Below the pieces are notes generated by a model. It was not told the origin of the DNA, searched no databases, and saw only the letters and a program-made list of their open reading frames with translations. A stretch of 64,000 bases of DNA from Candidatus Kryptoniota bacterium (lineage in GTDB: Bacteria > Bacteroidota > Ignavibacteria > Kryptoniales > JAKASW01): positions 1-64,000 of the forward strand of contig DATCTN010000031.1 in assembly GCA_036567965.1 (NCBI GenBank), written 5' to 3'. The translations under genes and the position numbers were made by a program. Shown here one piece after another: positions 50,099-61,491 of this stretch. Numbering within the stretch: the first letter of the stretch is position 1; each line of letters starts with the position of its first letter.

Positions 50099-51022
50099 AT
50101 GCCCATAAGAGTTTTGAAAATCAAAAGTGGCAAAGGGCGCTTGAGACAGATTAAGCGAGACGCCGACCGGCTTAGGAGTTACGCGATCATCTTATCTAAT
50201 TCCACGTTCGATAAACTTGTCAGAGCCGGGGACAAGAACTACGTTGTTTCAAAGTGGAAAAAGTACGATTCAACGCTTGACAACCATGGGAACAGCCCTA
50301 CTTTTAGACAATACTTTGCTCATGTTTACAATACCTTGAAGAGCGCATATAGGAGCGAGTACGTTTACAAGAACATTATTGCGAATGAGATTCTCTTGGG
50401 GAAATATAGCGTGAATTCAACTACGCTTTTGAATGAATTCCGAGTAGGCAGATCGATAGCTGACATTGTGTTGCTTAACGGCACGAGCAGAGTTTTCGAG
50501 ATCAAAACGGAATTGGATAGTCCGACCAAGATTTCACACCAGCTAGCCGACTATAGAAAGGTGTTCAAGGAAACTTATCTAGTAACGCACTATAGCCTGA
50601 AAGATAGATACCTTAGAATAATTGGTGAGGACGTGGGCTTAATCGTGTTGACGAAGGACTTCAAGTTGGTTACCATTCGTAAGGCAAAAGAGAGTTGCCA
50701 TTTAGACCAGCATACCATGATGAAGTGTCTTCGAAAAGATGAATTCACGAACATTGTGAAAAAATACTACCATTTTGTCCCGGCTACTTCAGCTATACGT
50801 TATTATAGGACGTGTCAGGATCTTATACTCAAAATTCCAATTGATAAGCTGCATGACTTGGTTATCGGTGAGCTCAAGAAGCGAACGATAAAACAAAAGT
50901 CTTATTTCATCTCGCGAAGTCTGCCTCCACAACTCAAGTACATCGGGTGGTGTCTGGATTTTGATGAGGAAGAGTACTTGAGATTGCACGACGTTCTTCG
51001 GGAGAAAATCAACCTTAACTGA
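50099..51022 (+). CDS. sce7726-family protein, PD-(D/E)XK nuclease-like
   Basis: The 307-residue protein matches the sce7726 family in its central block: NEFRVGRSIADIVLLNGTSR, then VFEIKTELDSPTKISHQLAD and YLVTHYS. E113, D122 and the E134-x-K136 pair have the spacing of a PD-(D/E)XK nuclease core. There is no signal or membrane segment, so it is cytoplasmic. The sce7725-like gene follows after 6 bases and an RES gene after it. The gene is AT-richer than its neighbours, suggesting acquisition. Activity is inferred from the motif; no biochemical function of the family is known to me. Confidence 0.75.
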   Translation: MPIRVLKIKSGKGRLRQIKRDADRLRSYAIILSNSTFDKLVRAGDKNYVVSKWKKYDSTLDNHGNSPTFRQYFAHVYNTLKSAYRSEYVYKNIIANEILLGKYSVNSTTLLNEFRVGRSIADIVLLNGTSRVFEIKTELDSPTKISHQLADYRKVFKETYLVTHYSLKDRYLRIIGEDVGLIVLTKDFKLVTIRKAKESCHLDQHTMMKCLRKDEFTNIVKKYYHFVPATSAIRYYRTCQDLILKIPIDKLHDLVIGELKKRTIKQKSYFISRSLPPQLKYIGWCLDFDEEEYLRLHDVLREKINLN

Positions 51023-51028
51023 AGATTA

Positions 51029-51970
51029 ATGTACTTTCCGTACCTACGGGGTAAACAATATGAACTAATAGCTTTGAGAGATCTCGGGGGTCCCCTCAAA
51101 TCTGAGGGTTTTATATCGCCGATAATTGAGCCGGTTAAGAACTCGTTCACCCTAATCAAAACGATAGAATCATTGCGGGATTGTGGGCACAATTTCAACC
51201 TTATACTGAATCCTCAAGTTGGTGAGTTTAACGGCATAAAGGAAGTGATTGCAGCAGTCGTTAGTCCTTGTCTGAGCTCATATCGGAATTACCAACCGGC
51301 CCTCGTAATAAATGGGAAGACTCGGTTTAATGAGGCGCTTTCTATGATTGGGCAAATGAAGACCGATGGCTTCACTATTATCTGTGACGGACTTCCTCAG
51401 CGAGAAGAGGACTTTTTCACTCTTATAGGTAAGATAGAAGTTAAGTATGTGGTTCTTAGCGACTCCATAACTAGTAAGAGATTCATTCGGGAAATAAAGA
51501 AAGCAAAGCTTCCCATAGCGACCCTCTCTGACCCATTCAGGGTTCAGAGAACCAACGCTGATTACTTGGCTGAGCCAGACGAATTTTTTAGTGATGAGCA
51601 TCTCTTCTACGTTGAGGAAGGATATGCGGGATTTTCAGACTTTGTCACGATCGGAAGAGAATTCAGTGAATCTGGATTTTTGCCGTATGCTGTAGCAATA
51701 CATCTGACGTATAAGAACAAGGAAGATGAGTTTCGGATTCGTCATTTTGTCTCAGACAGTAACGAGGACACAACTGATGTGCCCGGAAAATTCGGAGAAG
51801 CTTTGGAGAAACTAGTGACTTTCATAGACCGCGTTCAACTTAGGACAGCAGCTTGTCAGGAGTTCCGGAGGCTGCGCAGAAATGAGGATTACCCCGGATT
51901 AGGAAGTGTCAAGAAGTTGTCAATCCAAAATCATTTTGAACTCGTGTACGACTATCTAAGTACTACCTAG
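51029..51970 (+). CDS. sce7725-family protein (partner of sce7726)
   Basis: The 313-residue protein starts MYFPYLRGKQYELIALR, the opening phrase of sce7725-family proteins, which usually sit next to sce7726. It continues with GFISPIIEPVKNS and a beta-alpha pattern that might be a barrel; relation to the phage T4 beta-protein family is possible but unverified. No catalytic motif is visible. Spacing of 6 bases from the upstream gene and 2 bases to the downstream one shows a tight operon. Function is unknown; the constant pairing suggests a complex with the nuclease-like partner. Confidence 0.75.
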   Translation: MYFPYLRGKQYELIALRDLGGPLKSEGFISPIIEPVKNSFTLIKTIESLRDCGHNFNLILNPQVGEFNGIKEVIAAVVSPCLSSYRNYQPALVINGKTRFNEALSMIGQMKTDGFTIICDGLPQREEDFFTLIGKIEVKYVVLSDSITSKRFIREIKKAKLPIATLSDPFRVQRTNADYLAEPDEFFSDEHLFYVEEGYAGFSDFVTIGREFSESGFLPYAVAIHLTYKNKEDEFRIRHFVSDSNEDTTDVPGKFGEALEKLVTFIDRVQLRTAACQEFRRLRRNEDYPGLGSVKKLSIQNHFELVYDYLSTT

Positions 51971-51972
51971 GG

Positions 51973-52986
51973 ATGCACTGCTGCCCCAATTGCTTTCAGG
52001 ATATCCTGCTTCGTTCTCACGTTGAGTACAACTCAACCGAAAGCGGCGACTGCGACTATTGTAACTCAAAAAGCGTGAAACTCATCGATGTGAGAGAGCT
52101 TGCCGAGAAATTTCAGCCATTGGTTAACCTCTATCAACCCGACTCAGGAGGGAGCGCACTTCTAGGCAAGTCCATTCAGGCTGATTGGAATACGTTTAGT
52201 TTGCCCGGCGATGGGGCTCAAGAACTGCTAAGAGGTATCTTCTCTGGAGAGGCGGTAACCGCGGGAATTTTTGATGGTGCGGTAATAAATAAGGCGAGGA
52301 TTGGTGACGGTTCCCGCACTTTGCTGGATACGTGGAAGAATTTTAAGAGTGAAATAGTAAACCAAAACAGATTTTTTATTCGCAGCAACATTGATGTTGA
52401 CCTCTTAAATGAAATTCTACAAAACAAATCCCATACCTACTCCACGGGAAAAATATTCTACAGGGCGCGGATTTCTACTAACAAGGGTTTTTCGGCATCA
52501 GATATGGGCAAACCGCCGAGTGAACAGTCCAAAGCAGGGCGTGCTAATCCGAAAGGAATTCCGTATCTGTATCTAGCGACCGACGAAAAGACAACCGTCT
52601 ACGAAGTAAGAGCCTCTTACCTCGACTTTGTCACCTTGGCAGAATTCAAGTTGAAGGAAGACATCAAGGTGATTAGACTCAGACAAACCAAGGGTGTCAG
52701 CCCATTCGAGATACCCGATCCTATGAAGTATGTGCTATACGAGAAATTTCTTCAGGAGCTAGAAAAGGAGTTGTCAAAGCCAATTAGAAGATACGATTCA
52801 GAACTTGACTATCTCCCATCACAGTATATTTGCGAATTCATAAAGTCAAAGGGCTACAATGGAGTGGAGTATGCGAGCTCACTCAACGTGGGCGGAATAA
52901 ACTTAGCGATATTTGATGAGACTAAACTGCAGTGCACCGATGTGAGGGTAGCGGAAATAAAAGAAGTTGGAATCACCTATTCATAG
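51973..52986 (+). CDS. RES-domain protein with N-terminal zinc ribbon
   Basis: The 337-residue protein opens with a likely zinc ribbon: CPNC (C4, C7) and CDYC (C27, C30). The RES domain follows from about residue 160: FYRARIS with R164, then MGKPPSEQSKAGRANPKGIP and TTVYEVRAS with E211, and later YICEFIKSKGYNGVEYASS. RES proteins of toxin-antitoxin pairs degrade NAD+ by phosphorolysis or hydrolysis using conserved Arg and Glu residues. No Xre-type antitoxin is adjacent; instead it is the third gene of the sce7726-sce7725 operon, 2 bases after the previous stop. It may be an effector controlled by those partners, which is inference. Confidence 0.8.
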   Translation: MHCCPNCFQDILLRSHVEYNSTESGDCDYCNSKSVKLIDVRELAEKFQPLVNLYQPDSGGSALLGKSIQADWNTFSLPGDGAQELLRGIFSGEAVTAGIFDGAVINKARIGDGSRTLLDTWKNFKSEIVNQNRFFIRSNIDVDLLNEILQNKSHTYSTGKIFYRARISTNKGFSASDMGKPPSEQSKAGRANPKGIPYLYLATDEKTTVYEVRASYLDFVTLAEFKLKEDIKVIRLRQTKGVSPFEIPDPMKYVLYEKFLQELEKELSKPIRRYDSELDYLPSQYICEFIKSKGYNGVEYASSLNVGGINLAIFDETKLQCTDVRVAEIKEVGITYS

Positions 52987-53356: not shown

Positions 53357-53611
53357 TTATCGATTTTCAGCCTTGTCTTTTCTCTCGAGGACGGCTTTGG
53401 ATACTATCTGCCCAAACTTCTCATCTATATGCTGGTTGAACCATTCGTCGATGACAGACTTTTTGAATCGCCACTCTTTCCCGAGTTTCGCAGCCGGAAT
53501 TTTCTTCTCCTGTGCCCACGTATAGATAGTTTGAGGCGTCAGCTTCAAATACCGCGCGACGTCTTCCAATGTCATTATTTCCTCGTCAGGCACGGTCAAC
53601 CCTTTCGACAT
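53357..53611 (-). CDS. Excisionase-type helix-turn-helix protein
   Basis: The 84-residue protein carries one HTH of the MerR/excisionase type: MTLEDVARYLKLTPQTIYTW followed by AQEKKIPAAKLGKEWRFKK and VIDEWFNQH. It probably binds DNA as a small regulator; despite the family name, no integrase gene is near. It starts one base after the stop of the membrane protein at 53613, so both are made from one transcript. A role in controlling that membrane protein is possible. Confidence 0.85.
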   Translation of the reverse strand: MSKGLTVPDEEIMTLEDVARYLKLTPQTIYTWAQEKKIPAAKLGKEWRFKKSVIDEWFNQHIDEKFGQIVSKAVLERKDKAENR

Positions 53612-60798: not shown

Positions 60799-61491
60799 AT
60801 GAAGACCATAGGTTTGATAGGCGGGACGAGTTGGGTCTCGACTGTCGAATATTACAGGGTAATAAATAAGCAAATCAACAAGCGTCTGGGCGGACTCAAC
60901 TCCGCAAAAATTCTTCTTTACTCGCAGAACCAGGAAGAACACAAACCGCCTTCGGATGAAGCTGGCTGGATAGAACAGGCTGGATTCCTTATCGGCATAT
61001 CGAGGCAGCTCGAGGATGCCGGGGCGGAATGTATACTTCTCTGTGCAAACACGCCGCACATGATTGCCGACAAACTTCAACTTGGCATCCATGTTCCTCT
61101 CATACATATTGCAGACGCGACCGCCAGGGAAATTCTGAAATTTGGTTTGAAAAGAGTCGCGCTTCTCGGGACGAAAGTCACCATGGAACAGTCATTTTAC
61201 AGGGACCGACTCGCGAAGTTCGGGATAGCTGCTCTCACGCCGGATCAGGGCGAACGAGATTTCATAGATACCACGATATTTTCTGAGCTCGACAAAGAAA
61301 TCTTCAAGGATGAAACGAGGAAGAAATACCTGGCGATCATCGAGCGCCTGAAAGGTGACGGGGCGGAAGGAGTCATATTCGGATGCACGGAGATCCCTCT
61401 TCTCATCAAGCAATCCGACTGCACCATTCCCGCTTTCGATACCACCACGATCCACGCGCTCGCTGCGGCCGAGTTTGCTCTCGGCGATTAG
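60799..61491 (+). CDS. Aspartate/glutamate racemase family protein
   Basis: The 230-residue protein begins MKTIGLIGGTSWVSTVEYYR, typical of the YgeA/aspartate racemase group. The two catalytic Cys are visible: one in LLCANTPHMIADKL, the other in VIFGCTEIPLLI. It would interconvert D- and L-aspartate or glutamate without a cofactor, in the cytoplasm. A ribosome binding site GGAGGAGAGG precedes the ATG. It is flanked by terminator and an outer-membrane protein gene, so no operon partner hints at the substrate. Confidence 0.88.
   Translation: MKTIGLIGGTSWVSTVEYYRVINKQINKRLGGLNSAKILLYSQNQEEHKPPSDEAGWIEQAGFLIGISRQLEDAGAECILLCANTPHMIADKLQLGIHVPLIHIADATAREILKFGLKRVALLGTKVTMEQSFYRDRLAKFGIAALTPDQGERDFIDTTIFSELDKEIFKDETRKKYLAIIERLKGDGAEGVIFGCTEIPLLIKQSDCTIPAFDTTTIHALAAAEFALGD

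Follow-up and report, generated by a model that had tools for sequence, protein, structure and literature searches.

The 64,000-nucleotide stretch analysed here (positions 1 to 64,000 of contig DATCTN010000031.1 of a Candidatus Kryptoniota bacterium, further called the window) harbors a cassette of three genes, which encode proteins of the sce7726, sce7725 and RES families (Table 1). On balance, we favour the reading that this cassette is a mobile abortive-infection system of the toxin-antitoxin-like type, related by descent to the gop-beta-cII system of P4, in which a putative RES NAD+ phosphorylase occupies the slot of Gop. This reading is preferred because the first two proteins are homologs of cII and, remotely, of beta, because the nuclease and RES residues are invariant, and because the genes are inherited together, are mobile and have neighbors of defence type.

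The three open reading frames are intact and co-directional and are separated by spacers of 6 nt and 2 nt, in agreement with the initial annotation, which had described a packed three-gene cassette between unrelated operons. Upstream lies an efflux operon and downstream are genes for a helix-turn-helix (HTH) and a Yip1-like protein; all of these are on the minus strand and unrelated to the cassette. The cassette had also been called richer in AT than its surroundings, and indeed its GC content is 43.4% versus a window mean of 50.3%, the minimum among 245 segments of cassette size. The reported lack of an Xre-type antitoxin was confirmed, as no gene for an antitoxin of the Xre, MbcA or ParS type is found in the operon or adjacent to it. 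The closest gene for an HTH protein, at 53357-53611 on the minus strand, was considered as an antitoxin gene and rejected on the basis of synteny, since it is kept in congeners that do not possess the cassette. Promoter and terminator scans gave results at or near chance level.

Table 1. Positions of the cassette genes, conserved residues and related loci. Positions are those of the window, except for loci with an L number, which are from other sequences.
Feature	Position	Strand	Length	Basis
sce7726-family gene	50099..51022	+	307 aa	
sce7725-family gene	51029..51970	+	313 aa	
RES-domain gene	51973..52986	+	337 aa	
sce7726 nuclease active-site block (E113, D122, E134-x-K136, Q148)	50435..50542	+		Conserved in aligned relatives
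Zinc-ribbon cysteines of the RES N terminus (C4, C7, C27, C30)	51982..52062	+		66 relatives
RES catalytic residues (R164, E211, S302)	52462..52878	+		Conservation
Strain-specific segment	49706..53402	none		blastn against syntenic loci of congeners, and congener gene order
sce7726-sce7725 pairs without RES	L122:7129-8912; L141:4986-6839 (near-copies L142-L151); L120, L125, L127, L128, L137, L140, L152, L156			

The proposal that the cassette is acquired DNA is supported by its distribution, with sce7725 present in only one of 13 genomes of the genus. In blastn comparisons with the syntenic loci of the congeners, nucleotide homology extends to a point within tolC and is found again only from within the HTH gene. 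Two congeners (L237 and L238) have, in the place of the cassette between tolC and the HTH/Yip1 genes, a gene that appears from its sequence to encode an Asp/Glu-racemase-like protein; in the window this gene is located at 60799-61491, and the region is rearranged. In another congener (L236:750-3139) apparent genes for a DUF3800 protein and for a REP-associated transposase are found beside the HTH/Yip1 genes, for which reason we regard the site as a variable spot. Neither flanking repeats of the att type nor a tRNA gene could be convincingly identified at the insertion.

The sce7726 protein matches NCBIfam model NF033832 with E=1.8e-49 (168 bits, curated cut-off 70) and the PADLOC cll model with E=7.8e-14; the latter is matched by all 59 sce7726 proteins that were scanned. 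P4 cII itself belongs to this family, as it matches the NCBI sce7726 model with E=2.5e-44, and hhalign of the sce7726 profile against P4 cII gave E=6e-19. The active site was compared in an alignment of trio copies (86-89 aligned of 90), 15 copies from loci with only the sce7726-sce7725 pair and 31 copies linked to beta. Residues D122, E134-x-K136 and Q148 are identical in all aligned copies, whether these have RES, beta or neither of them as a partner, and E113 is replaced only once, by Q in one pair-only copy. This pattern of conservation is that of a working PD-(D/E)XK nuclease.

The sce7725 protein matches NCBIfam model NF033831 with E=2.7e-87 (293 bits, curated cut-off 60). P4 beta is a member of the Pfam family Beta_protein (PF14350), the model of which matches 23 of 70 sce7725 family members (best E=8.9e-6), and hhalign aligned the sce7725 and beta profiles over 233 columns with E=1e-5 and a probability of 82%. 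These profile comparisons indicate a remote relationship between sce7725 and P4 beta. The window protein itself gave no Pfam match at E<=1 and no match to the PADLOC models, including that for beta. An iterated beta HMM drew in sce7725 members and was perhaps contaminated by one of them; the link to beta is therefore based here on hhalign and on the Pfam model, which is curated. The AF2 model of the protein (pLDDT 94.7) has weak matches to several TIM barrels, and the modelled fold looks like one of TIM-barrel type. Among viral models Foldseek returned one strong match, to an uncharacterized protein of Gordonia phage Powerball (E=5.7e-9), for which no connection to beta was found and which is not counted as evidence here. 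Both family assignments of the initial annotation thus hold, as does its emphasis on E134 of sce7726. Its view of the two families as uncharacterized neighbors is only partly upheld: both proteins score far above the curated NCBIfam cut-offs, and the family names indeed refer to neighbors only, giving no function and stating no link to P4 defence or to RES, but homology to cII and beta ties the pair to a proven defence system.

The third protein matches the RES domain of Pfam (PF08808) with E=6.9e-15 and 55.9 bits (cut-off 23.2), and its N-terminal domain scores 24.7 bits with HEPN_RES_NTD1 (PF18870), below the cut-off of 27.4. Among 66 relatives, zinc-ribbon cysteines C4, C7 and C27 are always present and C30 almost always; the catalytic residues R164, E211 and S302 are invariant in the same 66 relatives and in all aligned trio copies. 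The AF2 model (pLDDT 92.6) has as its top Foldseek match the Xre-RES toxin of P. putida (9r35), with 6gw6 and ParT (6d0h) within the top ten, and PARP folds are matched as well. The scores are moderate because the protein has only its C-terminal half in common with the Xre-RES and ParT toxins. The zinc ribbon, the RES assignment and the importance of R164 and E211 had all been put forward in the initial annotation and are borne out here, and the structure model, recommended there for the active site, has a fold like that of the Xre-RES and ParT toxins with the R/E/S residues intact. The protein is a candidate NAD+-consuming effector; the known NAD+ phosphorylases include RES enzymes, for example NatT (PMC11535050). 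No model of PADLOC 2023 matches the sce7725 or the RES protein, and searches of PDB sequences with all three proteins and their alignments returned nothing usable.

Among systems with established activity, the gop-beta-cII system of P4 is related to the cassette through two of its proteins. In E. coli it confers protection from lambda and P1, and its Gop component is reported to be toxic when beta is missing (PMC9122126). Both systems combine a sce7726-family protein with a toxic third gene and mobile carriage, the toxicity of RES being putative, and sce7725 is remotely related to beta. However, gop is absent from the cassette, as none of the three proteins matches the PADLOC gop model, and RES takes its place; moreover, beta and cII are convergent in P4, whereas all three cassette genes are on the plus strand. 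Because of the absence of gop and the different gene order the cassette is not a member of the gop-beta-cII group. A survey of 349 Pseudomonadota genomes gave nine sce7726 genes over the cut-off, three in trios with sce7725 and RES and six convergent with beta, and viral sce7726 loci mostly have one of these two arrangements, with a few lacking a recognizable partner.

PD-lambda-2 is likewise a toxin-antitoxin-like defence system of three components, one of which is related to beta. This third component, a relative of a P4 antitoxin, is needed for defence but does not neutralize the toxin (PMC9519451); the PADLOC PD-Lambda-2_C model matches P4 beta. Unlike the cassette, PD-lambda-2 has a toxin part composed of HigB and a HigA-peptidase, and no sce7726 gene is described for it. 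No HigB toxin or HigA-peptidase gene upstream of a beta relative was found in the gene content of the window or by PADLOC matching. With the Xre-RES, MbcTA, ParST and NatRT pairs the cassette shares the RES domain, its fold and the R/E/S residues. In contrast to these pairs, its RES protein of ca. 337 amino acids carries an N-terminal zinc ribbon and is encoded by the last gene of a three-gene operon, behind the genes for a nuclease-like and a TIM-barrel-like protein, and since an Xre-type antitoxin is absent, the cassette is not an Xre-RES system.

The three genes are transmitted as a unit. Scans of genome and viral collections, supplemented with searches of plasmids, phages and genomes, yielded a total of 123 sce7725 loci, 107 of which are complete trios with the same gene order and with median gaps, counted to the first start codon, of 3 nt and 1 nt. 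After addition of later loci and removal of near-copies, 108 non-redundant loci were left, and in 91 of them RES is the next gene downstream, a fraction that is biased upwards because the 80 genome loci are the best matches to a mostly trio-derived alignment. An unbiased search for family members in 297 genomes of the phylum of the window gave seven hits over the cut-off, of which six are full trios. The trees of the three genes resemble each other, as their distance matrices correlate with r=0.91-0.92 over 83 trios, and none of 999 permutations reached such values. Trio hosts belong to many phyla, which are mixed along the sce7725 tree, with Pasteurella inside a Bacteroidota clade and Psychrobacter beside Prolixibacteraceae. 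The tree correlation and the mixed hosts show that the trio moves between hosts as one unit. Examples occur on plasmids of Moraxella, Rhizobium, Shinella and Pseudorhizobium, next to genes of an integrating-conjugative element (ICE) in Salmonella houtenae, and on phage and prophage contigs; most of the loci found are not on annotated plasmids. No fusion, that is a single open reading frame matched by two of the trio models, was found.

The initial annotation had named two findings that would count against it, namely RES genes occurring mostly without the pair, and a trio without a link to defence or mobile genes. Neither was observed. For the former, a profile of trio RES proteins was searched against the 297 and 349 genomes mentioned above. 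Full-length RES proteins of the trio type (>350 bits) number six in the phylum of the window and three in Pseudomonadota, and all nine are encoded beside the pair. The next scores are from a broken gene (256 bits), which has no pair in the sequence available around it, and from a fragment at a contig edge (209 bits). Other RES types score at most 167 bits, a gap that is partly expected because the profile was built from trio members; the ones inspected, from the first sample, do not have the pair. An apparently intact RES gene of the trio type without the sce772x pair is present next to IS6100 on a Glutamicibacter plasmid (L015:5202-7202), which means that RES without its pair is not always lethal, unless the gene is silent there. 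As to the second finding, the plasmid, ICE and prophage carriage described above is accompanied by neighbors of defence type. The 144 genes adjacent to trios matched 104 PADLOC models (E<=1e-10) and 143 random genes matched 23; as the PADLOC models are redundant and the control is small, these counts support an enrichment without measuring it. The matches include BrxP, PglX, type I methylase and specificity subunits, capP and a DRT reverse transcriptase, and integrase, RteC and GmrSD domains also occur beside trios.

Several loci deviate from the trio. Pairs of sce7726 and sce7725 without RES (Table 1) are found on phage and prophage contigs, often beside an integrase or repressor gene; the pair of L122 adjoins a P4-like primase gene. 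Such pairs may be two-gene defence units or may serve counter-defence as a stolen antitoxin. In four loci (L022:4453-6796, L167:4788-7845, L220:2-2106 and L221:2-2013) beta is convergent with sce7726 (cII) and is preceded by a gene for an ImmA/IrrE-like peptidase. This arrangement is reminiscent of PD-lambda-2, and cII may be an unrecognized partner of PD-lambda-2-like systems. The phage loci L173:3242-4727 and L176:5549-7046 have, upstream of beta, a gene for a gop-like small coiled-coil or membrane protein. The order is swapped in L154:3897-5684, where sce7725 precedes sce7726 downstream of genes for an Xre protein and an ImmA/IrrE-like peptidase. On an Enterococcus plasmid (L011:7306-9513) sce7725 is found without RES and is followed by a GNAT acetyltransferase gene; the gene before it encodes a different protein without a Pfam match, by eye possibly another type of nuclease.

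The initial annotation, according to which the nuclease-like pair may sense or restrain the RES effector and so give abortive-infection behaviour, is partly supported. In the mechanism that we envisage, sce7725, as the relative of beta, would keep RES inactive in the resting cell. During infection the sce7726 nuclease, as the relative of cII, would act on or detect a product such as phage nucleic acid, and this signal would alter the sce7726-sce7725 complex in such a way that RES is set free. Free RES would destroy NAD+, and the infected cell would stop before the phage matures. The antitoxin role of sce7725 is uncertain because the beta-like subunit of PD-lambda-2 is not a neutralizer. It is possible, though we would not expect it, that sce7725 is instead an infection-sensing or licensing subunit and that sce7726 or the N-terminal domain of RES quiets the toxin. 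The requirement of PD-lambda-2C for defence rather than neutralization (PMC9519451) and the match of its PADLOC model to P4 beta agree with such a role, whereas P4 beta does counteract the toxicity of Gop (PMC9122126). With the remaining logic unchanged, RES could also act by ADP-ribosylation of one particular target, in the way that ParT modifies Prs, rather than drain NAD+. This is somewhat less probable again: ParT and PARP folds are among the Foldseek matches of the model, but the Xre-RES toxin of P. putida ranks first, and RES enzymes of the NatT type are NAD+ phosphorylases (PMC11535050).

The role of RES within the cassette might also be smaller than proposed, with sce7726-sce7725 being a complete nuclease-based defence unit and RES a back-up suicide arm. 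Pairs without RES, on phages and on one P4-like satellite contig, and the invariant nuclease motif in these pairs fit such an arrangement, which we nevertheless consider unlikely, as RES accompanies almost all cellular copies and its tree follows that of the pair. Least probable in our judgement is a selfish addiction module that stabilizes plasmids and ICEs without any immune role, RES killing cells that lose the pair. The trio does occur on plasmids and an ICE, and some plasmids are reported to be stabilized by RES toxins (PMC7301842). Against this stand the many loci outside annotated plasmids, the strict conservation of the nuclease active site even in copies without RES, and the homology of the pair to cII and beta of a proven defence system. 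The preferred reading, a RES-armed relative of gop-beta-cII, has its own counterevidence in the different gene order and toxin of P4, the remoteness of the homology between sce7725 and beta, the Glutamicibacter RES without a pair, and a RES system of P. aeruginosa for which no phage phenotype was seen (PMC11535050).

A description of the trio was not found in the literature searched, which did not extend to preprints or to most subscription papers. RES enzymes form a large toxin family; according to a paper of 2024, a part in immunity had not been assigned to any RES toxin-antitoxin system, and known NAD-targeting immunity makes use of TIR and SIR2 (PMC11535050). Speculatively, TIM-barrel-like proteins of the beta superfamily and cII/sce7726 nucleases might constitute a general infection-sensing module with swappable toxins (Gop, RES and perhaps HigB plus HigA-peptidase), RES would be a third class of NAD+-destroying immunity effectors beside TIR and SIR2, and the phage and satellite pairs without RES would be stolen antitoxins used in counter-defence. 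The widespread trio ties a RES enzyme to homologs of a proven phage defence system and thereby makes the question of RES immunity directly testable, and it provides a hypothesis on function for two NCBI families that have been named only as neighbors.
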